This document shows positions 3,358 through 21,508 of a stretch of DNA of 22,679 nt, one piece after another. The translations under genes were made by a program, and so were the position numbers. Position 1 is the stretch's first letter. Each line of letters starts with the position of its first letter. Under the pieces are notes generated by a model. That model was not told where the DNA came from. It saw nothing but the letters and a program-made list of their open reading frames with translations, and ran no database searches. Source of the DNA: a virus; IMG/VR virus record IMGVR_UViG_3300008448_000710, positions 1 through 22,679 of that record. One strand, 5' to 3'.

Positions 3358-4247
3358 TATAGGAAACCTCCGATAGGTGAATTGCCATTCTGTATCAGCG
3401 CACCTCGCGAGAATCTGTCTAGTGTAAAGTTTCTAGCAATATTTTGTCTGCTGTATAAAGGTTGTAAGGTAATGTTCACTGTGCTGCTTGTTGGCAGTCG
3501 GACTGGGCCACCAAAGTTGACATTTGTTGGCAATTGCAATCCTGCACTACTCAATGAGGCACCCACTGGTATAGATACATAATCAACTTCTCCTGGCATA
3601 GTATGACTGAATGATGTTACAACGCAGGGAACATGGGGAAGATATGCTGCTCCAAACCCATCTAAGAATACCAGTGGAGGAGGGCTGTCTGCATTTTGAT
3701 CTGCTCCAAAAAACATTTTTGTCACAGTTCTAAAAAATTGTATTACTGCCATCAAATACTGACCTTCTTTAATATTTTGAACTGTAAATTCTCCATTTAT
3801 ATTAATGGAAGAAACTTCACTGCCTTCGTAGAAATAACTAGAATAATTACTGTGAGTTAATGGAGTAGAACCATATTTTGCATTATGCGTTATAGTAATA
3901 GACGGCGTATACGGAAATATAACTCCACTGGTTTCTCGCAATGGTCCAAGAATACTATTATCTATTCTATTATAAAATAAGTCAGCAGTTGGCCTTGCCA
4001 TACTAATTCGCACTCGCCAATCATATTGAGGGTCAATTGTTGATCCATCTGTACCATTAAAATTAACATTAAATACACTGCCGGCTATATCTGTCAGTAA
4101 ACCATTAGCACCTGGGGCAAGTCCAGAATTTGCTAGCCTCGATCCGCTTGAAGACGCCGAGCCTGTAGAACCCGTTACGGAGGCTGGGCTGAAAAATGCG
4201 CTTTGGGCAGAACTATCCCCTGCAAAAGTAGAAGTATTATATGACAT
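3357..4247 (-). CDS. Baseplate tail tube cap/initiator protein (gp48/gp54-like)
   Basis: A 296-aa protein with a Ser/Gly/Ala-rich N-terminus (to about residue 45) followed by a beta-rich body. Recognisable parts are DPQYDWRVRISM, PYTPSITITHNAKYG, SSYFYEGSEVSSININGEF, EGQYLMAVIQFFRTVTKMFF and SFSHTMPGEVDYVSIPV. This is the pattern of T4-like proteins on which the tail tube starts growing (gp48 cap and gp54 initiator); I cannot separate the two from sequence alone. It is the first gene of the minus-strand baseplate operon, and a TAAATA late-type box lies just upstream at 4263-4272. The start is the first ATG after that box. Confidence 0.65.
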   Translation of the reverse strand: MSYNTSTFAGDSSAQSAFFSPASVTGSTGSASSSGSRLANSGLAPGANGLLTDIAGSVFNVNFNGTDGSTIDPQYDWRVRISMARPTADLFYNRIDNSILGPLRETSGVIFPYTPSITITHNAKYGSTPLTHSNYSSYFYEGSEVSSININGEFTVQNIKEGQYLMAVIQFFRTVTKMFFGADQNADSPPPLVFLDGFGAAYLPHVPCVVTSFSHTMPGEVDYVSIPVGASLSSAGLQLPTNVNFGGPVRLPTSSTVNITLQPLYSRQNIARNFTLDRFSRGALIQNGNSPIGGFL

Positions 4248-4262
4248 TTGATACCCGTTTTA

Positions 4263-4358: not shown

Positions 4359-5249
4359 ATGAAATCAAATTACTTAAACAATAAAGATATTCTTAAAGAG
4401 ATACACAAAAGCAAGAATTCGTATTGCACATTCAGTGACCCAGAAGTTGCAGACTATGACATGATTCTGCCAGATGTTAAAAAAATTAATAAAAAAAATA
4501 TACTAGATGCTCGCAAATTAAGGGCAGAAAGATTAAGCAAATTAGCGCATGAAGCTGCCGTAGCGGCCACTGGGGAAAAGCAAAAAGCTGACCAATTTGA
4601 AATCAAATACACTAAAATTCCACAGACTGATGTAGTCTTTCGAATTATGACATGGGAGCATATACCATTAGACGATGTCAAGACTAAAAAAGCCAAAGAC
4701 GCGGCCAAAGAACTGTTTGAAGACGAAGATGAAACTGCTCATACCGAGTATGACGAAGATGATCCCAAACATAACAAATACGTTAAAGTCAATTTTCCGC
4801 CTTTCTTTCATTATAAAGTAGACGAAGAAGGCAACCCTATTCTGGTAGGCAAAAGTCATTGGTCGGGCGGATTAGACACTGGATCTTTTAATAGAGAACA
4901 TGGTGCAATGACTAATAAACTAGCTCATATGTTTATGAAACTGTGTGAACGTTATGCAACCAGAAGTAATTGGAGAGGGTACACTTATAACGACGAAATG
5001 CGTAGTCAAGCCTTATTACAACTCAGTCAAATTGGATTGCAATTCGACGAATCGAAATCGCAGAATCCTTTTGCTTATTATACTGCTGCTATCACTAATA
5101 GCTTCACTCGAGTGCTGAACATCGAAAAACGCAATCAAAACTTACGTGACGACATTTTAGAAATGAACAATCTTAATCCAAGCTACACTCGCCAAGGCCA
5201 GGGTGGGTCGTGGGGCGGTGCAGGGGGCGGCGTAGATGGTAACGACTAG
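4359..5249 (+). CDS. 55: Late transcription sigma factor gp55
   Basis: T4 gp55 is a minimal sigma factor that directs host RNA polymerase to TATAAATA late promoters and couples transcription to the sliding clamp. The C-terminal half (about residues 180-285) carries the family signature: LAHMFMKLCERYATRSNWRG, YTYNDEMRSQALLQL, FDESKSQNPFAYYTAAITNS and FTRVLNIEKRNQNLRDDIL, equal to sigma region 2. The protein is 296 aa, much longer than T4 gp55 (185 aa). The extra ~150 N-terminal residues contain an acidic stretch (FEDEDETAHTEYDEDD). The C-terminus is Gly-rich (GQGGSWGGAGGG), and I see no clear hydrophobic clamp-binding end. AAAGGA before the ATG serves as ribosome binding site. It overlaps the next gene by 14 nt. 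Confidence 0.88.
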   Translation: MKSNYLNNKDILKEIHKSKNSYCTFSDPEVADYDMILPDVKKINKKNILDARKLRAERLSKLAHEAAVAATGEKQKADQFEIKYTKIPQTDVVFRIMTWEHIPLDDVKTKKAKDAAKELFEDEDETAHTEYDEDDPKHNKYVKVNFPPFFHYKVDEEGNPILVGKSHWSGGLDTGSFNREHGAMTNKLAHMFMKLCERYATRSNWRGYTYNDEMRSQALLQLSQIGLQFDESKSQNPFAYYTAAITNSFTRVLNIEKRNQNLRDDILEMNNLNPSYTRQGQGGSWGGAGGGVDGND

Positions 5250-5904
5250 GATTAAATTTGATCCAACTAGTTCTGATATAATTCTCATAACCTACCCCCC
5301 GGGGGGTTTTGGGAATTTTGTATATCATCTATTAACTGAATTTACGGATCAAACAGTTAAACCCAATAATAGCTCATTTGCGTTTAGCGGCACCGGGAAC
5401 AGTCACGGTACTAAAAAATATACTGTAACGTATTCTCACAATCCCTCAAAATACCATCCGTACATAGACTCAGACGTAGCCACAGAGGGTAAAACAATTT
5501 TGGTACTGGTAGACAACAAATGGTACGATAACGATTACTCTCGCTTACGTGAGGTTTTTCCAAATGCAAAAATTGTAAGGATGTGCTTTGAGCCACGCAT
5601 GTATCCTATTGTGTTTGCTCTAGTTACTGCTAAAACAAAAGGCATACAGGCTAATATATACGTGCCGCCAAATTACAAAGGCGAAGGCAAATTTACTCCG
5701 TTACATTTGCCCAATGTTGTGAATGCATCCATCGAAGACTTTATCTTGGATCCGTTTGAAACGTTTTATAAGATAGCCACAGAGTTGGGATTAACTGTTA
5801 TTAATACTGATCAACTTCATGGCGTTGTTGCAGAATGGCGCAAGGTCCACAAACCATACTTTGAAGATCTATACAAAGAATTCCAGAAGGAGCATTTGCT
5901 ATAG
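5236..5904 (+). CDS. Sulfotransferase-like P-loop protein A (function unknown)
   Basis: A 222-aa protein of unknown role. Near the N-terminus it has ILITYPPGGFGNFVYHLL, which resembles the 5'-phosphosulfate loop of sulfotransferases (TYPKSGT-like). Near residues 105-130 it has FPNAKIVRMCFEPRMYP, like the sulfotransferase 3'-phosphate-binding region (FPNAKIIYVVRNP-like), but the usual Arg and Ser are not conserved. It is a paralog of the gene at 6950-7849: both share YP-x-G-x-FG-x-F and a FPNA motif at similar spacing. The start lies inside the end of gp55 (14-nt overlap), suggesting coupling. Alternatives are a nucleotide-binding regulator or a glycan/nucleotide-modifying enzyme. The sulfotransferase link is inference from two short motifs. 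Confidence 0.7.
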   Translation: MVTTRIKFDPTSSDIILITYPPGGFGNFVYHLLTEFTDQTVKPNNSSFAFSGTGNSHGTKKYTVTYSHNPSKYHPYIDSDVATEGKTILVLVDNKWYDNDYSRLREVFPNAKIVRMCFEPRMYPIVFALVTAKTKGIQANIYVPPNYKGEGKFTPLHLPNVVNASIEDFILDPFETFYKIATELGLTVINTDQLHGVVAEWRKVHKPYFEDLYKEFQKEHLL

Positions 5905-5936: not shown

Positions 5937-6953
5937 ATGAGTAACCTATTTAAGAAAGCCGCAGTATTCACCGACATCCACTTTGGTCTAAAGTCAAATA
6001 GTCAATTGCACAACGAGGACTGTTTGAACTTTATCAAGTGGGCTACCGCTAAAGCACGAGAAGAAGGTTGTGAAACCGCTATGTTTCTCGGAGACTGGCA
6101 CAATAATCGAGCCAGTCTTAATATTGTCACGCTTAATTATAGCCTTAGAGCATTGGAACATTTAAATGATAATTTTGAACGTGTTTATTTTATTCCTGGT
6201 AATCATGATTTGTATTATCGGGATAAACGTGATATTCAATCGGTTGAATGGGCTCGTCACCTCCCGAACGTTCAAATTGTTAACGATTGGTTTACTAGCG
6301 GCAATGTGGTTATTGCTCCTTGGCTTGTCGGAGACGACCACAAACGAATTGCCCGACTTACGGGAAAATACATGTTTGGACACTTCGAACTGCCCCACTT
6401 CTATATGAACGCCATGGTGCAGATGCCCGATCACGGCGAAATTAAAAATGAACATTTTGGAAATTTTGATCAAGTATTCACTGGGCACTTTCATAAAAGA
6501 CAGCAACGTCAAAATATTACATATATCGGAAATTGTTTCCCTCACAACTATGCCGATGCTGGCGATGACGATCGTGGACTAACTATTTTAGAATGGGGGA
6601 AAGAACCCGAATATCATGCATGGCCCAATCAGCCTAGATATCGTGTGCTAGGATTAGGTGCTATTTTAAATAACGCAGACTCGGTGTTAGGACAAGGTAT
6701 GCATGTTCGTGTTAATATTGACATCGATATTAGCTACGAAGAAGCAACCTTTATCAAAGAAACTTTTATGGAGTCTCATAAACTGCGAGAAATTACATTA
6801 ATCCCACAAAAAAATGCAGACTTAAATGAATTTGCAATACAGGGCAATGTTAATTTCGAAAGTGTAGATCAAATTGTTACCAATCAACTTACTGCTATTG
6901 CCAGTGAGCATTATGACAATAAGATATTGCTGGACATTTATAGAAATTTATGA
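5937..6953 (+). CDS. 47: Recombination endonuclease subunit gp47 (SbcD/Mre11-like)
   Basis: Calcineurin-type metallophosphoesterase that forms with gp46 the nuclease processing double-strand ends for recombination-dependent replication. Metal-binding motifs are all present in order: FTDIHFG (D13, H15), LGDWHNN (D53), PGNHDLYY (N89, H90, D91), FGHFE (H149) and FTGHFHKRQ (H184, H186). Length 338 aa is close to T4 gp47 (339 aa). The ATG is 32 nt after the previous gene, with no strong ribosome binding site visible. The end overlaps the next gene by 4 nt (ATGA). Confidence 0.95.
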   Translation: MSNLFKKAAVFTDIHFGLKSNSQLHNEDCLNFIKWATAKAREEGCETAMFLGDWHNNRASLNIVTLNYSLRALEHLNDNFERVYFIPGNHDLYYRDKRDIQSVEWARHLPNVQIVNDWFTSGNVVIAPWLVGDDHKRIARLTGKYMFGHFELPHFYMNAMVQMPDHGEIKNEHFGNFDQVFTGHFHKRQQRQNITYIGNCFPHNYADAGDDDRGLTILEWGKEPEYHAWPNQPRYRVLGLGAILNNADSVLGQGMHVRVNIDIDISYEEATFIKETFMESHKLREITLIPQKNADLNEFAIQGNVNFESVDQIVTNQLTAIASEHYDNKILLDIYRNL

Positions 6954-7849
6954 ACTTTGACAAATTATACACTATCCAATATCCTTCGGGAAGTTTTGGG
7001 CATTTTACTCATCTAATATTGTCTACTTACGGCGAAAATTTTACTAAACAAAAGGTCGAATTAAAATTTAAAAATAAAATGAATAGCGGCAGTAGTCATT
7101 TTATTTCTTCGCAAATTCAAAAATATTACGATGTGGATCGATATAAAGAGTATGCTGCAACAGCATTAACCGACGATTATATCGCATTGACTAAAAACGG
7201 AAACTACACAACTGTAATTATCGATTCTGGTATTGCTGATGACTCGGATACTTTTAAACAATTCTTTCCGAATGCAAACTGTATAAAAATATGTTATACT
7301 GATTATAGCTGGCCGTTCAGTGCTAAATCTTTCTACACCAGATGTATGAGCGAAGTTCTATTAGAAGAAACTAAAATTGACGATTTCATTAACCCCGATA
7401 AGGATAAATGGATATCGGCCGAGCCGTGGGAAAAAAGAGAAAAATATTTTCTATTTCTCCGAGATCATGAATTTAGACAGATGTGGAATCTTTCTAGTTC
7501 TCCGTTAACTGTTGATGTAAATGCATACCTTAGCTACGAGACTTTATATAATTCATTATCTAATATTGTCAAATTAAGTAATTTTCACGAATTATATGAT
7601 AAATTTTATAAAAATAATTCAATTCATATCGATTGGTATCTACGATGTCGAGAAATTTTATCAGCTATTCAAAATAATCAATGCATCGATCTAACTGATA
7701 TTTCCGATGATTTGTTCAGTCAAGCAACCATCAATTACTATATACAAATTTTGTATAACTTCGAAATTCCAGCATGGGATTACCGAGATTGGTTTTCTTC
7801 GACTGATCAAATATTTTCAATGCTCGACTTACATAATATTTCACATTAA
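6950..7849 (+). CDS. Sulfotransferase-like P-loop protein B (paralog of 5236-5904)
   Basis: A 299-aa protein of unknown function. Its N-terminus reads LYTIQYPSGSFGHFTHLIL, matching the YP-x-G-x-FG-x-F loop of the protein at 5236-5904. A second shared block, SGSSHFIS versus GNSHGT, follows, and a third, QFFPNANCIKICY, matches EVFPNAKIVRMCF. It has an extra C-terminal region of about 140 residues rich in Tyr, Asp and Trp (for example AEPWEKREKYFLF) that protein A largely lacks. It is linked to gp47 (ATGA overlap) and gp46 (shared A of TAATG), so it is certainly co-translated with the recombination nuclease. In T4 small unrelated genes lie between 47 and 46. Function may be nucleotide or sulfonucleotide binding; this is inference. 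Confidence 0.7.
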   Translation: MNFDKLYTIQYPSGSFGHFTHLILSTYGENFTKQKVELKFKNKMNSGSSHFISSQIQKYYDVDRYKEYAATALTDDYIALTKNGNYTTVIIDSGIADDSDTFKQFFPNANCIKICYTDYSWPFSAKSFYTRCMSEVLLEETKIDDFINPDKDKWISAEPWEKREKYFLFLRDHEFRQMWNLSSSPLTVDVNAYLSYETLYNSLSNIVKLSNFHELYDKFYKNNSIHIDWYLRCREILSAIQNNQCIDLTDISDDLFSQATINYYIQILYNFEIPAWDYRDWFSSTDQIFSMLDLHNISH

Positions 7850-9623: not shown

Positions 9624-10628
9624 ATGTTAGCAACATGGCACTGGCACATTGAAATTAGCAGTAAATGCACTTTACGCTGTCCTCGGTGCGCACGACAAGA
9701 AGTTCCTGATACTTTAATAAACACTGAGTTAGATTTAGAGTTTTTCAAAAGAAATTTTACCCCTGAGTTCATTCTTTCTAATGTGGAAAAAATAACATTC
9801 TGCGGCGACGACGGCGATCCTATATACGCACATGATCTAATACCTGTGATCAAATATCTGAAATCAGTCAAAGATATAGAGATTGTTATTGTTACCAACG
9901 GCAGCTATAAAAAAGAAGACTGGTGGACCAGTCTGGGTAGTACCTTGACTGCTAAAGATAGTGTACATTTTAGTGTCGATGGATTCGACAATATCAGTAA
10001 TAATTTGTATAGGATAAACAGCGACTATGATAGTATAATACAAGGTATAAAAACATTGCGGGCGCACAGTCCTTGTCAGATTGTATGGGCCGCAATTGCG
10101 TTTCGATTTAACGAAGATCATTTAGAATCAATGAAAGACTATGCCGACCAGATTGGCGTGGATCGATTTCAAATTACACTGAGTACAAAATTTGGTGCGA
10201 TCTATCCAAACTATGGAGAGAATGATCCTCTTCAACCCAGTAAAAAATATATTAGTAGCTCACATAGATTTGAACGCCAAATAACTGATTTTACTATTAG
10301 GCAAACACCTGTTCACCCAATTAATATCAAACTCTATGAACACACAAAATTAAAAGATACAATCGTACCGTTATGTGAAATTGGCAACAAAGGCTTGTAC
10401 ATAGATGCACAGGGTAGATTATTTCCGTGCTGCTGGGTTGCGAATAGATATTCTCACAATCAAGAATGGCAAGATCTCGGATCAAAATTTAATTTAAACA
10501 ATATAACAATAGAACAGGCATTGGCAGACCCTTTCTGGATCAATGAATTCCAATCGTTTAAGTGGCAAGAATGTCAGACAAAATGCAAGAAAAACATGGT
10601 AAACCAGGAATATGCAACATCATGGTAA
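9624..10628 (+). CDS. Radical SAM protein with SPASM-like C-terminus
   Basis: A 334-aa enzyme with the radical SAM cluster motif CTLRCPRC (C15, C19, C22; CX3CX2C), which binds the [4Fe-4S] cluster that splits S-adenosylmethionine. A GGEP-like motif CGDDGDP is at 60-66 and IVIVTNGS at 87-94. The C-terminal third has five further Cys (251, 269, 270, 317, 321) in LCEIGNKGLYIDAQGRLFPC and WQECQTKCKKN, a SPASM/Twitch-like auxiliary iron-sulfur arrangement seen in PqqE/MoaA-type and peptide-modifying enzymes. Substrate unknown; no precursor peptide gene is evident next to it. It follows gp46 by 2 nt, so it belongs to the same operon. Auxiliary metabolic or protein/peptide modification roles are both possible. 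Confidence 0.85.
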   Translation: MLATWHWHIEISSKCTLRCPRCARQEVPDTLINTELDLEFFKRNFTPEFILSNVEKITFCGDDGDPIYAHDLIPVIKYLKSVKDIEIVIVTNGSYKKEDWWTSLGSTLTAKDSVHFSVDGFDNISNNLYRINSDYDSIIQGIKTLRAHSPCQIVWAAIAFRFNEDHLESMKDYADQIGVDRFQITLSTKFGAIYPNYGENDPLQPSKKYISSSHRFERQITDFTIRQTPVHPINIKLYEHTKLKDTIVPLCEIGNKGLYIDAQGRLFPCCWVANRYSHNQEWQDLGSKFNLNNITIEQALADPFWINEFQSFKWQECQTKCKKNMVNQEYATSW

Positions 10629-10668: not shown

Positions 10669-11103
10669 ATGACTTGGTTTTTTCAAGACACCCCAGTTGA
10701 GGAATTGCCCGAGGATTGCATAGGATTTGTATATCTAATCACAAACAAAATATCAAACAAAAAATACATTGGCAAAAAACTGGCAAAATTCAGTAAAACT
10801 ACTCAAAGAACAGTAAAATTAAAAAACGGCACCAAAAAGAAAAAGAAAATTCGCTCAAAAGTCGATTCAGACTGGAGAGATTATTATGGCTCAAGTCCTG
10901 AGTTACAAACAGATGTACAAACATTAGGCTCAGACAATTTTACCAGAGAAATACTTTACTATTGTAATTCCAAAGCAATTTGTAGTTATATTGAAGCAAG
11001 AGAACAATTTACCAGGCGTGTATTAGAATCAGACGAATATTACAACGGCATAATCAATTGTCGTATCCATGGCTCCCATATAAAAAATAAATTAAGCATT
11101 TAA
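10669..11103 (+). CDS. GIY-YIG family endonuclease
   Basis: A 144-aa protein with the GIY-YIG fold signature: GFVYLITNKISNKKYIGKK (GIY-like FVY at 20-22, YIG at 33-35), then a basic Lys-rich insert (50-65), WRDYYGSS (69-76) and a helix with the likely catalytic Glu in YIEAREQF (E109 or E112). No separate DNA-recognition modules such as NUMODs are seen, so it may be a stand-alone phage nuclease of the Seg/Mob sort or a repair-type enzyme. It starts 40 nt after the radical SAM gene and ends right before the hairpin-rich intergenic region 11104-11530, with which it might be functionally linked. Confidence 0.8.
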   Translation: MTWFFQDTPVEELPEDCIGFVYLITNKISNKKYIGKKLAKFSKTTQRTVKLKNGTKKKKKIRSKVDSDWRDYYGSSPELQTDVQTLGSDNFTREILYYCNSKAICSYIEAREQFTRRVLESDEYYNGIINCRIHGSHIKNKLSI

Positions 11104-11530
11104 GACTCGCACAGGTCAATATCATGTGCCCTAGACCTGGATCTCGGATCGCAGGGACGGAAGACTCACCGTGCTAGTGAGCACTCAACCACTACCCGAC
11201 AGGATGAAGATTGCCAATGCCGCAATTTGGTTGTTTGAAAAGGATTAACAGGCTAAAAAGACGTAGCAGTGATGCTACAAGGTTTATATGTATGTTAGCG
11301 TATAGATATAAACTTGCCGTTGTGATAAGAACTGAGCTCGAGGTACCGGACAACCGCCTCTGTAATCGCTTTAACGCTAATGACTGTGCTACTCGGATGA
11401 AGCATTATCATTTTTGCCCTGTGCGGGCAAAGTGTGACTGATTAATCTGGATGAAACTTATATCGCTACGCTCTTTAATTAAAATATATCACTGAGCGAC
11501 AGCGAAAGTGATAGATGTGCGTAGCACATC
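11104..11530 (+). ncRNA. Hairpin-rich intergenic region, candidate structured RNA
   Basis: No convincing gene covers these 427 bases between convergent genes, and it looks more GC-rich than its surroundings. Stems visible by eye include: 11112-11117 with 11134-11139 (6 bp, competing with the next); 11136-11143 with 11147-11155 (8 bp, one bulge); 11165-11169 with 11177-11181; 11210-11214 with 11222-11226; 11263-11268 with 11273-11278 closed by a GTGA (GNRA) tetraloop; 11279-11289 with 11306-11315; 11340-11349 with 11354-11360; 11413-11419 with 11425-11431 (7 bp). GGATGAA occurs three times (near 11202, 11394 and 11448). It does not match a tRNA, tmRNA, RNase P, hammerhead or group I core that I could recognise. 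Strand is assumed from the upstream gene. Confidence 0.35.
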
Positions 11531-11531
11531 T
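11487..11531 (-). terminator. Tandem hairpins after the gp26/51-like genes
   Basis: Directly after the minus-strand stop at 11531 lie two hairpins. The first is a perfect 8-bp stem, AGATGTGC/GCACATCT, with a 3-nt loop (11513-11531). The second is a 7-bp stem, TATCACT/AGTGATA (11487-11493 with 11507-11513), followed on the minus strand by TATTTTAATT. The T-run is weak, so this may be an mRNA 3'-end or processing signal rather than a strong intrinsic terminator. Part of the first stem (GCGTAGC, 11519-11525) could also pair with GCTACGC at 11465-11471. Confidence 0.4.
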
Positions 11532-11761
11532 TAAAAGAATGGTAATCCTGTTTCCTTTGTGGTATTAAGGTTGTCTTCAATAATACCATTAATGATTTCT
11601 CTTTCTTGGAAACTTATTTCCAAGGCTTCACTATAAGTTATTCCACCCCTCATATGCCAACAAATTTTTAATATATTCTTCTTAAGGGCTTTTGAATCTT
11701 TGTCGAAGTCTTTGATCATTTCAACAATTGATTCATTGTCTAAACTCAAAAGCCTTATACG
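11531..11761 (-). CDS. gp51-like C-terminal extension read by -1 frameshift from gp26-like gene
   Basis: The 72-codon frame 11531-11749 has no ATG; the only candidate start is a TTG at 11749 without a ribosome binding site. In the -1 frame relative to the gp26-like gene it is open without a stop from the T TTT TTC site at 11761-11767, adding Arg-Ile-Arg-Leu and then the 72 residues. The expected fusion is about 355 aa. The helical product includes ILKICWHMRGGITYSEALEI, REIINGIIEDNL and a TGLPFF end, a pattern I associate with the small gp51-like companion of gp26 in marine T4-like phages. By analogy with P2 E/E+E' and lambda G/GT it is probably the frameshifted form of a tail assembly chaperone acting on the adjacent tape measure protein. 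Confidence 0.7.
   Translation of the reverse strand, partial: RIRLLSLDNESIVEMIKDFDKDSKALKKNILKICWHMRGGITYSEALEISFQEREIINGIIEDNLNTTKETGLPFF
11683..11757 (-). promoter_or_regulatory. Stem-loop downstream of slippery site (frameshift stimulator)
   Basis: On the minus strand, 11757-11742 (TAAGGCTTTTGAGTTT) pairs with 11699-11683 over 16 bp with one bulged C (11688) and two G-T wobbles; the loop is about 42 nt. The stem begins 3 nt after the slippery heptamer, or about 6 nt if the first three weak pairs are open. This is a fitting place for a structure that pauses the ribosome. Confidence 0.5.
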
Positions 11762-12597
11762 AAAAAACTTGCTTGCTCAAAAACTAATGGGGTTTCATAG
11801 GGTTTGTTGCAGTCTTCGTGTTCGCAAGTTATGGGAATTTTTTTAAGTGGACTCTGTTCTCCAAAGCTTTCTAGTTTTGTTTTAACTGAGTCCCACACTG
11901 TTTTGTTGCAATTTTGAAAGAATTCATGAATTTGTTCCGGATCTTCTACTAGAACGCCTTCTTCTGTTTTAATCCCAGCTACACTCTTACTGATTTGTTC
12001 TACAGTAAGAGATAATAATCTTTGGAAAACCACATTGAATTTTGATAATTTTTCTTCGTCGCTCAGTGAATCGTCACCTGCTACAGCTAATAACCGTTGA
12101 TGTTCGTAGTTTTCTAAACTGGCTTTGTTAAATTGTTGGTAAGTCTGTGGCCTAATATAAATTTCGAGTCCTTCTACTTTTATAGTGGAATCAAAATCGG
12201 GACAAGTTATCTGTGACGATAATGCGCCAAGATCCGCAGTATTTTCATTTTTTCTTTGACAATGGGGACAAACACTGACGAACTCCATGCCCGGGCCATA
12301 TGTTGCATGACGTATAGCTATCAACACTGCATCTAAATCAATGGCAGGCATTTTCCATGCGTCTTTGATGGCAGGTACACAACTTTGTATAACTTCCACA
12401 GTACTTTGTCCATTTAACAGTGCATCGGGAGTTTTTAAGATTAGTTCGTCTTTGGCAGTCATCGGATAAACTGGTAATTCTCCAGTAACCGGTAGATCTA
12501 AACTGCCAGGTGGATACCATCGTCCCATGCTGGGCAATTTAAGATATAATTGAGGCTGTCTAAAATGTTTAGCCAAAGGATTAGCAATATTAACCAT
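11755..12597 (-). CDS. 26: gp26-like baseplate hub/tail assembly chaperone
   Basis: A 280-aa protein matching the T4-like gp26 baseplate hub family: N-terminal YLKLPSMGRWYPPG, then YPMTAKDELILKTPDALLNG and IRHATYGPGMEFVSVCPHC. It has CPHC (C110, C113), a further Cys at 132, and CEHEDC near the end (C258, C263), likely metal-binding. T4 gp26 is 208 aa and takes part in hub assembly; gp26 and gp51 are thought to correspond to the tape measure chaperones of other phages. The gene is divergent from the tape measure gene. The last codons are Phe-Phe-Val-stop, with Phe-Phe encoded inside a T TTT TTC slippery site, so part of the ribosomes probably continue into the gp51-like frame. Confidence 0.8.
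   Translation of the reverse strand: MVNIANPLAKHFRQPQLYLKLPSMGRWYPPGSLDLPVTGELPVYPMTAKDELILKTPDALLNGQSTVEVIQSCVPAIKDAWKMPAIDLDAVLIAIRHATYGPGMEFVSVCPHCQRKNENTADLGALSSQITCPDFDSTIKVEGLEIYIRPQTYQQFNKASLENYEHQRLLAVAGDDSLSDEEKLSKFNVVFQRLLSLTVEQISKSVAGIKTEEGVLVEDPEQIHEFFQNCNKTVWDSVKTKLESFGEQSPLKKIPITCEHEDCNKPYETPLVFEQASFFV
11761..11767 (-). promoter_or_regulatory. -1 ribosomal frameshift slippery heptamer T TTT TTC
   Basis: Six T then C on the minus strand, in the correct X XXY YYZ register for the gp26-like frame (AGT TTT TTC GTA TAA). Slippage by one base leads into CGT ATA AGG CTT TTG, which continues into the gp51-like frame without a stop. The zero-frame stop codon follows one codon later. Confidence 0.72.
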
Positions 12598-12655: not shown

Positions 12656-14713
12656 ATGGATGAAAGAACACAACAACTGCTGGAAAAACTTGGTTTAACC
12701 GCCAACGCCACTTCGGGTGCAATGCAGCAGTTAATCTCTGCATTGAGTAAAACTGCATCGGCCAGTAACAATCAAACCAATGCAGCAACATTGACTGCAC
12801 AATCTTTGCAGCAAATGCAAAGCAGTGCTCAATCCACTGCTTCTTCTTTTAGAAATTTTTTAAGTATAGGCACTAGTTTTGCAGGGGGGTTAACAACTTT
12901 AACATCCAGCGTATACGGTGCAGACAAAGCTTTTGCCAGTGTTATTCCTACACTAGATTTCATTACCGGTACTTTTACTAAAACTGTTACCGCAGCTGGC
13001 ACAGCATTAAGTGGAGTATCTATTGCAGGATTTAGCTTTGGTAAAGCCAGTGAAGCTGCCGCGCAAGGAGTAGCAAACACATTTGAAGTTTTGTCTGACG
13101 TTATTAAATTTCAAATTAACAGTGCTCAAAAAGTTTCTGACCAATTTCTTGCATTATCTAAAGTTGGAGCAACTTTTGGTGGCAGCATAGGAACAATGGG
13201 TGCTGATGCAAAAAAATTACAAATTCCTTTACTTGAATTTGGTAGGATTATAACAACAAATGTGGAAAATTTAACCAAGCTTGGCAAAAGTGTAAGAGAT
13301 GCAGGTTTCGAAGTTGCAAATTATGCAGCAGGACTATATGAATCCAGTGATGCTTTAGTTGCTCTATATGGAAACGTCGAAAATATAAGTGCAGGAGTAG
13401 CTGACTTTCTAGCATTACAGGCACAGTTGGGGCGTGTTGACCAGATGCGTGGGGAACAAGGTCGAGCTGATTCTAATAGACAAAGTGCTGCTATCAAAGA
13501 ATATCTGATCAGACAAAAAGAACTAACAGCACTAACTGGACAAAGTGCAGATGCGCTTAAAAAAGCAGAGGAAGAACGAAGAAGAGATTTAGCTTATCAA
13601 TTAAAAGTTAGCAGAATGAGCACTACAGCTCAAGCAAATGTCAGTGAAGCATTCGGAATTGCTCAAACTAAATTTGGTGATGAAGCTGCTCAATACTTAA
13701 AAGAATATATCAGAACACAAGGAAAAGTAACAGATCCTGCAATGATATCATTTGCTGCTGGTAACCAAGAAGTTGCCCAGACCATGCAAATGTTTGCTGA
13801 AAATATAAATTTAGGAAAAGATGAATTCCGACGAACATACGCAGGATTCATAAAAGCAAATGCAGGTGCTTATCGAGGATTTGCTGAAGGCATTGAAGAT
13901 TTAGCAGAATTGCCGCCTTCGTTAATGAATAACTTTGTTCAATCTCAAACAAAAATGGGTGCTTCATTGATCAGTAATATGAACTTTTTTGAAAATTTAC
14001 CGACTACTATAGAAAGAATGATAGCTGAAGGCACAGATCTACGAGGAGTGTTAACTGATTCTGCTAGTAAAGCATTCGTGGATGCAGAGAGGAGACGTAG
14101 CCAAGTTCAGCAAGAAATTGATGCATCGGTGTTAGGAAATATGCAAAAACTTGGAAGTACTATGGAATTGTTAAATCAAGCTACATTGTCCATGGTAAGA
14201 GCACAAGATAGTATTAACCAGTTAGTAAATAGACTTAAAGATATACCAACGGGAAAAGAGTTTAACAAAGCTGTTGGGGATATTGTGGATCAGATCTTTA
14301 AAGGAATGGGAATACCATTGAAGAAAAACGAGCCTCCTGCACCTGCAAGAGTTCCAGAAGGAGGAGCTACTGAATTGCCCCCGGGAGCGTCATTGCCAGG
14401 ACCAACTTTTGCACAAGCTTCTCCTATCACACCCAGTACTCCCTCAGAAATTGCTGATCAAGTACTACTTATGGAACTATTGGCTGACAGTAAATCACAA
14501 AAAGCAAATCAAGAATCATCAGCTGAATCTCGTAATTTAGCAGCCGACATTACCAGATTACAAACACAAATTGCATCATTGGTTACTGCAAATAATAACA
14601 ACGAACAAGTAGTAGCAGCACTAACTGATCAGAATGGATTAATGTCAACATTAAATGACAAAATGAGTGAAATGATAGATTCTAATAGAAGCATATTCAA
14701 TGCATTGGCTTAA
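12656..14713 (+). CDS. Probable tail tape measure protein (gp29 role)
   Basis: A 685-aa protein rich in Ala, Gln, Ser and Thr with long helical stretches. It has a hydrophobic Gly/Ala-rich segment at about residues 68-140 (for example TSFAGGLTTLTSSVYGADKA and VTAAGTALSGVSIAGFSFG), and Gln-rich coiled coils at both ends, as expected for a tape measure protein that fixes tail length and later passes into the host membrane. The C-terminal region contains a Pro-rich linker (about 560-590) before a final helical segment. In T4 the tail length determinator is gp29 (590 aa). Its place beside the gp26/51-like chaperone supports the role. The identification rests on composition and context, not on a specific motif. 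Confidence 0.6.
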   Translation: MDERTQQLLEKLGLTANATSGAMQQLISALSKTASASNNQTNAATLTAQSLQQMQSSAQSTASSFRNFLSIGTSFAGGLTTLTSSVYGADKAFASVIPTLDFITGTFTKTVTAAGTALSGVSIAGFSFGKASEAAAQGVANTFEVLSDVIKFQINSAQKVSDQFLALSKVGATFGGSIGTMGADAKKLQIPLLEFGRIITTNVENLTKLGKSVRDAGFEVANYAAGLYESSDALVALYGNVENISAGVADFLALQAQLGRVDQMRGEQGRADSNRQSAAIKEYLIRQKELTALTGQSADALKKAEEERRRDLAYQLKVSRMSTTAQANVSEAFGIAQTKFGDEAAQYLKEYIRTQGKVTDPAMISFAAGNQEVAQTMQMFAENINLGKDEFRRTYAGFIKANAGAYRGFAEGIEDLAELPPSLMNNFVQSQTKMGASLISNMNFFENLPTTIERMIAEGTDLRGVLTDSASKAFVDAERRRSQVQQEIDASVLGNMQKLGSTMELLNQATLSMVRAQDSINQLVNRLKDIPTGKEFNKAVGDIVDQIFKGMGIPLKKNEPPAPARVPEGGATELPPGASLPGPTFAQASPITPSTPSEIADQVLLMELLADSKSQKANQESSAESRNLAADITRLQTQIASLVTANNNNEQVVAALTDQNGLMSTLNDKMSEMIDSNRSIFNALA

Positions 14714-20860: not shown

Positions 20861-21508
20861 ATGTTATTTATTGATAACAAATACTATAACTGGTATTGTA
20901 AAATTATCTCTAATGCAAGACTTCGTAGTCTATCGACAGTAAAATACACTGAACGACATCACATAATACCTAGAAGTTTTGGCGGTAATAATAAAAAAGA
21001 AAATATTGTTAAATTAACTGCCAGGGAGCATTTTATATGTCATTGGCTTTTAATCAAATGCACCACTGGTGATCTTAGAAATAAAATGATACAAGCATTG
21101 CATATAATGCAATGCAAAAATTCCATTCAATCTCGGTATTCTTCTAAAATTACATCAAAAGTATATTCTTTAATTAGGGAAGAATATGCTAACATAGTTA
21201 GTAAAAATATGAAAGGGAAGACAGGCAGATTACCATGGAATAAAGGCAAACAAATTGGTCCTCACTCGGCTGAATCTAATAGATTAAAATCAGAAGCACT
21301 TAAAAATAAATTTACTGGAAGTAAGAATCCAGCAGCTAAAACATATATATTCGAAGATCCATACGGAAAAGAGTATATTGTTACCGGAAGATTTAAATAT
21401 TTTTGTTTAGAGCATCAGTTGAGTTTCGATACTATGCGTAGAGCATTGAATAACAAAAAGAAAACATATCACGGCTGGTTAGTCAAATATTTCAATTCTG
21501 ATAAATAA
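20861..21508 (+). CDS. HNH homing endonuclease with NUMOD3-type DNA-binding motifs
   Basis: A 215-aa stand-alone homing endonuclease. The HNH core is TERHHIIPRSFGGNNKKENI (H33, H34, N48) with the second His pair in REHFICHWLL (H57, H61). NUMOD3-like motifs follow: TGRLPWNKGK (121-130) and FTGSKNPAAK (151-160). A C-terminal recognition region FKYFCLEHQLSFDTMRRAL...GWLVKYF resembles the NUMOD1/IENR-type helix-turn-helix. Such genes are mobile and often sit beside conserved virion genes. Its base use is more AT-rich than gp23. It has its own strong ribosome binding site and lies between gp23 and the next virion gene; the stop codon overlaps a GATAAATA late box (21500-21508). Confidence 0.88.
   Translation: MLFIDNKYYNWYCKIISNARLRSLSTVKYTERHHIIPRSFGGNNKKENIVKLTAREHFICHWLLIKCTTGDLRNKMIQALHIMQCKNSIQSRYSSKITSKVYSLIREEYANIVSKNMKGKTGRLPWNKGKQIGPHSAESNRLKSEALKNKFTGSKNPAAKTYIFEDPYGKEYIVTGRFKYFCLEHQLSFDTMRRALNNKKKTYHGWLVKYFNSDK
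21500..21508 (+). promoter_or_regulatory. Late-type promoter box overlapping the HNH stop codon
   Basis: GATAAATAA includes the TAA stop of the HNH gene and lies 75 nt before the ATG at 21584. It would let the downstream virion gene be transcribed late regardless of the insert. A 14-nt perfect palindrome AGTTTTTAAAAACT follows at 21512-21525. Confidence 0.4.

Follow-up and report, generated by a model that had tools for sequence, protein, structure and literature searches.

The phage P2 genes E and E+E' are overlapping frames joined by a −1 shift, which gives two products. The chaperones of T4-like phages were reportedly identified by Vladimirov, Gautam and Davidson in 2022, in a work whose title is said to argue for a mechanism other than frameshifting. 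Searching by titles and abstract openings found no paper on a frameshift in gp26/gp51, the 2022 work being known by its title and a citing passage, and no absence is claimed. As far as the portions of the sources drawn on here extend, lambda gpG and gpGT are described as acting on the tape measure and tube proteins and the frameshift as widely conserved in long-tailed phages "except T4" (review PMC5009743), T4 gp26 and gp51 appear among the hub assembly chaperones (PMC3004832), the TAC-N genes of T4-like phages are stated to carry poly-T slippery sites (PMC12846349, citing Vladimirov 2022), and the chaperone locus of Pseudomonas phage Adele is assigned a −1 frameshift at GTTTTT (PMC12846349). 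Since chaperone frameshifts and poly-T sites are in print, this kind of system is already known, and a frameshift in part of the T4-like phages may itself have been published. What is new here is the lineage of the window and a comparison of the site itself among jumbo phages, cyanophages and further groups.

The window (the whole stretch analysed, a virus record of 22,679 bases) carries on its minus strand a gp26-like gene (11755–12597), which matches the Pfam family PF12322 (T4_baseplate; E = 6.9e-12, 46 bits against a cut-off of 24.5) and the PHROGs family phrog_150 (E = 4.5e-15). Judged by sequence, its 280-aa frame-0 product is a homologue of T4 gp26, and these matches and a fold match make it a probable TAC-N. 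The gene ends AGT TTT TTC GTA TAA on the minus strand, as the initial annotation read it, with the slippery heptamer T_TTT_TTC at 11767–11761 in exact −1 register and the frame-0 stop codon TAA (11755–11757) 10 bases past the first base of the heptamer; in the window's group of relatives this distance is 10, 16 or 19. The −1 frame had been described as open right from the slippery site and is in fact open from three codons further upstream, running for 81 codons to the stop at 11533–11531, or 78 counted from the heptamer. This extension (11531–11767, minus strand; 78 codons plus stop) is predicted to be helical and is a probable TAC-C. The two product lengths given earlier, 280 and approximately 355 aa, also stand, as 277 + 78 residues make the 355-aa fusion predicted for the whole recoded gene (11531–12597, minus strand) from the junction anatomy, an arginine constraint and codon invariance.

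Heptamers of the form X_XXY_YYZ stand in register at 53 of the 6873 codon positions of 20 coding sequences in the window, two of them being TTTTTTC, and because such heptamers occur by chance, one alone is weak evidence; the heptamer at the gp26-like gene is significant because it is conserved across distant relatives. A comparison of the gp26/gp51-like junction in related phages, proposed in the initial annotation, supported the frameshift. The search with the gp26-like protein yielded 42 contigs (the window's group), one of which (L034) stops short of the gp26 stop, and all 41 that reach it have T_TTT_TTC in register and an open −1 frame, although in L009 and L021 the contig ends before the extension does. 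The cyanophage-type set consists of the best 80 of at least 597 matches to S-BM1 gp26, and 80 of these 80 contigs have an open −1 frame and a T_TTT_TTC that precedes the gp26 stop by exactly 10 bases, the extension running off in L077 and L082. Among the 26 named phages, 21 have an in-register T_TTT_TT(C/T/G) with an open −1 frame: T_TTT_TTC in 18 (Phosso, Atu_ph07, PA5oct, Vibrio 2.275.O, 121Q, RaK2, GAP32, SCTP-2, S-BM1, S-SM2, S-PM2, Aeromonas 65.2 and PX29, BUCT608, K575, ORM_20, ValKK3 and EniLVp02), T_TTT_TTT in RAS14 and XacN1, and T_TTT_TTG in N34.

The heptamer is absent in the other five named phages (T4, 44RR2.8t, G5211, D528 and SP-15) and in all four T4-type gp26 contigs that were read (six loci, the other two being partial), while contig searches with the gp26 of K575 and of D528 found no relatives. 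In Vibrio phage D528 (L141, ~4050–4255), the −1 ORF has an ATG that overlaps the gp26 stop, and in Bacillus phage SP-15 (L052, ~4680–4915), the gp26-like gene is followed by an open +1 frame whose C-terminal pattern is similar, and from the sequence a +1 shift is possible there. Because both phages have one PF12322 match and no heptamer, the heptamer is not universal in single-copy phages.

This anatomy and its conservation are accompanied by selection on both frames. The counts for the window's group come from 36 contigs and the window, which give 29 distinct ORFs, six of the 42 contigs being left out: L002, which repeats the window's protein, L009, L021 and L034, which are 3' truncated, and L036 and L042, which are 5' partial. 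For the cyanophage type, leaving out L077 and L082 gives 78 contigs and 76 distinct ORFs (from the best 80 of at least 597), while the named set in the ORF statistics comprises 11 phages and excludes T4 and SP-15, which lack the heptamer, and the phages added later. Among the conserved degenerate columns, a single codon is used only at the two Phe positions of the heptamer, which are 2 of 67 columns in the window's group (29 distinct ORFs) and 2 of 75 in the cyanophage group (76 distinct ORFs, from the best 80 of at least 597), and other conserved Phe columns mix TTT and TTC in both groups.

After the two Phe, all 29 distinct ORFs of the window's group have Arg as the first −1 residue (CGT 6, CGC 17, CGG 5, CGA 1), as do 72 of 76 of the cyanophage group (from the best 80 of at least 597), the remainder having Gln or Leu. 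The frame-0 residue encoded by nearly the same bases varies (V/A/G/E in the window's group, A/E/G/S/V/N in the cyanophage group), and the third base of the first −1 codon, which is the second base of the frame-0 codon, varies freely. Arg is kept while the frame-0 residue varies, so that constraint acts on these bases through the −1 frame and not through frame 0; it therefore begins at the heptamer, ahead of the TTG at 11749. Median dN/dS, taken only from pairs with pS below 0.6, is 0.19 for the −1 extension and 0.06 for frame 0 in the window's group, and 0.21 for both in the cyanophage group (from the best 80 of at least 597). A −1 frame stop lies directly before the heptamer in L014, L018 and phages 65.2, PX29 and EniLVp02, which confines the shift to the ten bases from the heptamer to the frame-0 stop.

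On this comparative evidence a programmed −1 frameshift, called probable in the initial annotation, is very likely, being supported by the conservation of the heptamer and by selection on the protein encoded in the −1 frame, which sets in at the heptamer. The locus is best explained, with a probability of about 0.93, as a T4-like tail assembly chaperone gene with a programmed −1 ribosomal frameshift. Most ribosomes would read AGT TTT TTC GTA TAA and release the 280-aa protein, whereas some, holding tRNA-Phe in both the P and the A site, would slip one base back, from TTT TTC to TTT TTT, pass the frame-0 stop and add 76 residues beyond the two Phe to make the 355-aa protein; simultaneous slippage of tRNA-Phe in both sites is the standard reading. 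If the lambda gpG/gpGT pair is taken as a guide, coating of the tape measure protein would fall to the short form, and the long form, made less often, would use its helical C-terminal domain to recruit the tail tube subunit to that protein. That cells perform the shift, and how efficiently, is inferred, as is the role as a chaperone.

The −1 frame is protein-coding and has no conserved start of its own, although some relatives have a start near the stop. In the window, the 72-codon frame said to contain no ATG starts with the TTG at 11749, and the first ATG is codon 17 of the extension; the reported lack of a ribosome binding site is almost, though not quite, correct, as AAGG lies three bases upstream of the TTG, a spacing that is short for a Shine-Dalgarno site. 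Most of the window's group retains a TTG soon after the heptamer, with none near the site in L035, L039, L040 and L041. Of the distinct ORFs, 3 of 29 in the window's group, 18 of 76 of the cyanophage type (best 80 of at least 597) and 7 of 11 of the named set have no ATG, GTG or TTG at a distance of up to 36 bases from the heptamer, and PA5oct has none anywhere in its −1 extension. The expected absence of a start codon across relatives is therefore found in part: none is conserved, yet one is present in many relatives. In 121Q, BUCT608, N34, K575, ValKK3 and EniLVp02, the frame-0 stop is overlapped by an ATG, and in 54 of 76 cyanophage-type ORFs (from the best 80 of at least 597) an ATG lies no more than 36 bases from the heptamer. 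With an ATG or TTG near the junction in so many relatives, a short product with its own start is also possible, and a free C-terminal domain may be made alongside the fusion.

Relatives with an overlapping ATG might accordingly use both routes, making the frameshift fusion and a reinitiated free C-terminal domain, as the heptamer and TAATG/TGATG occur together in the same six phages; we consider this possible but rather unlikely, since such a start is missing in other relatives and the free form is thus not generally needed. A separate small gene that is translated by termination-reinitiation at the TTG at 11749 (in relatives, at an ATG at or after the stop), with no fusion made, could draw on the AAGG before this TTG, on the ATG that overlaps the stop in the six phages or lies just after it in many cyanophage contigs, and on several database records which annotate the second part as its own gene. 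It is nonetheless very improbable, because the ORFs counted above have no ATG, GTG or TTG near the heptamer and PA5oct has none in its whole extension, the −1 residue after the two Phe is constrained upstream of the candidate starts, and the heptamer is retained even where an ATG exists. That RNA polymerase slippage on the T6 run, and not ribosomal slippage, makes the fusion is scarcely credible, as the six-T run is present but six Ts are short for bacterial transcriptional slippage, the conserved element keeps the X_XXY_YYZ register, and a seventh T is found among the named phages only in RAS14 and XacN1.

Candidate stimulators of the programmed −1 frameshift differ between the groups, and the window's own group shows no clear one, which speaks against the frameshift. 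An SD-like motif upstream of the heptamer is found in 0 of 29 distinct ORFs of the window's group, so that an upstream SD is not supported as stimulator there, and folding downstream of the heptamer is weak in this group (mean z −0.84, 2 of 29 below −2, window −0.35), so that a stimulatory RNA structure is unsupported as one of its features. Downstream folding has a mean z of −1.61 in the cyanophage type (22 of 76 below −2; from the best 80 of at least 597) and of −1.91 in the named set (6 of 11 below −2). All 76 distinct cyanophage-type ORFs (raw count; best 80 of at least 597) have an SD-like GAGG, GGAGG, AAGG or AGGA 8–10 bases before the heptamer, a word which is partly implied by the encoded Glu-Gly (L056–L135) and is possibly a dnaX-like stimulator, its spacing being close to that which stimulates the dnaX shift. 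Directly after the −1 frame stop, folding predicts strong terminator-like hairpins on the minus strand (11450–11530), the segment 11450–11535 having −28.9 kcal/mol and a z of −5.7; a terminator-like stem lies at 11505–11489, and the region has 3 such sites where 1.2 (sd 1.1) are expected. These stable hairpins suggest that the message ends just past the −1 frame stop.

The AlphaFold2 model of the 280-aa protein has a mean pLDDT of 86 and matches predicted T4-like baseplate hub assembly proteins in BFVD, while that of the −1 domain is helical and of moderate confidence (pLDDT 75, pTM 0.38). The PDB gave no significant sequence match, the fold search of the 280-aa model gave none with E below 0.001, and VIA-align of this model against the PDB gave only middling helical matches. 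The model also matches uncharacterised proteins of 380–550 aa from phages Special G, phiRSL1 and RSF1 in BFVD, which are possibly relatives not recognised by sequence. Neither domain significantly matches other chaperone families by sequence, and the −1 domain has no significant match among the Pfam chaperone families; the Mu Gp41 tail assembly protein is matched by 1 of 27 members with E 0.11, where unrelated families reach 0.004 in the same scan.

The neighbour of the gp26-like gene is a divergent 685-aa ORF (12656–14713), which has no family match in Pfam, PHROGs or NCBIfam and no hhalign match to T4 gp29 or the cyanophage neighbour protein; its identification as a tape measure protein is unsupported by Pfam, PHROGs, NCBIfam and hhalign to T4 gp29. 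In K575, the gene after gp26 matches the tape measure family phrog_4200 (E 1e-6), the sole such match among the seven neighbour proteins from relatives that were scanned, and in SP-15 the gp26-like gene sits between the tube gene and a large tail gene. Lambda G/GT and P2 E/E+E' are reasonable models for a chaperone function, and a G/GT-like role is likely for the predicted 280-aa/355-aa pair, because T4 gp26 and gp51 are counted among the hub assembly chaperones and lambda gpG/gpGT act on the tape measure and tube proteins.

The window also encodes a T4-type portal and capsid, a prohead protease and a late sigma factor, along with several features of separate interest. A Polynucleobacter-1 RNA (RF01718; 114.9 bits, E 1.2e-24) lies on the plus strand at 11104–11236, directly preceded by a SegE-type GIY-YIG endonuclease gene (10669–11103), and may point to a mobile cassette or to a host resembling Polynucleobacter. 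Two plus-strand ORFs, 5236–5904 and 6950–7849, are related to each other (25% identity over 120 aa, E 2e-7), have no family match and flank a phosphoesterase (gp47-like) gene, before a gp46-like AAA gene. A Radical SAM/SPASM protein is encoded within the T4-like structural region (9624–10628, plus strand), and an HNH-type endonuclease-like ORF (20861–21508, plus strand), with Pfam matches below the cut-off, follows the gp23 capsid gene.

The −1 domain, termed gp51-like in the initial annotation, aligns with T4 gp51 only at its C-terminus (residues 224–249; hhalign probability 82%), and the frame-0 profile aligns with gp51 residues 15–186 (hhalign 95.5%), so that the term fits the C-terminus of gp51 but not its N-terminus, which is a second gp26-type domain. 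T4 gp51 matches phrog_150 over residues 3–248 and phrog_634 ("baseplate hub assembly catalyst") over 147–246, and phrog_634 is matched by 3 of 15 −1 domains scanned, presumably those of the cyanophage type. Genes 26 and 51 of T4 are indeed separate, as had been stated, and gene 26 lacks the heptamer, but the two genes are divergent and not consecutive, and gp51 has 249 aa. The window's locus does not show the layout of gp51, in which a gp26-type domain and the C-terminal domain share one continuous frame; only the frameshift fusion would combine the two.

PF12322 has two matches in T4 (genes 26 and 51), 44RR2.8t and G5211, all three without the heptamer, one match in 22 of the other 23 named phages and none in SCTP-2, a copy count which could miss a strongly diverged second copy and did miss the gp26-like gene of SCTP-2. 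None of the 21 phages with the heptamer has more than one copy, and D528 and SP-15 have one copy and no heptamer. From the domain matches and this copy pattern, gp51 looks like the long form and gp26 like the short form, separately encoded, although the pattern of two copies versus heptamer is a correlation across few lineages. We lean towards the reading in which the −1 frameshift is ancestral in T4-related phages (jumbo, cyanophage, KVP40-like, Aeromonas and rhizobial groups) and T4 gp26/gp51 is a derived duplication, with D528 and SP-15 as further two-product solutions. The ATG overlap without heptamer in D528 and the +1 frame in SP-15 belong to this ancestral-frameshift reading.

The database records examined split the gene into a "baseplate hub" gene and a small "hub assembly catalyst" or hypothetical gene; the S-BM1 record annotates only a 31-aa stub of the second part, which is unannotated in PA5oct and RaK2. 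One recoded gene would give a concrete proposed role to T4 gp26/gp51, as short and long tail assembly chaperone forms, and recoding versus gene duplication is a natural comparison for how a two-product ratio is maintained.

Compared with described systems, the locus resembles lambda G/GT in its overlapping frames, in a −1 shift late in the first gene and in the expected short major and long minor products, as far as the consulted part of PMC5009743 describes them; unlike in lambda G/GT and P2 E/E+E', its first domain belongs to the T4 gp26 family (PF12322). It is like T4 in that gp26 is homologous to the frame-0 product and the gp51 C-terminus is related to the −1 domain, whereas T4 uses two divergent genes and has no heptamer in gene 26. 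The Adele locus, according to the portion of PMC12846349 used here, is similar in that its frameshift is inferred from the same kind of comparative evidence, but belongs to a different phage family with a different slippery motif. Cyanophages S-PM2, S-SM2 and S-BM1 share the same heptamer and −1 arrangement, with a second part annotated as gp51/hub assembly catalyst; they differ in that the pair is followed by a large gene on the same strand, and in an SD-like motif that is absent in the window's group.
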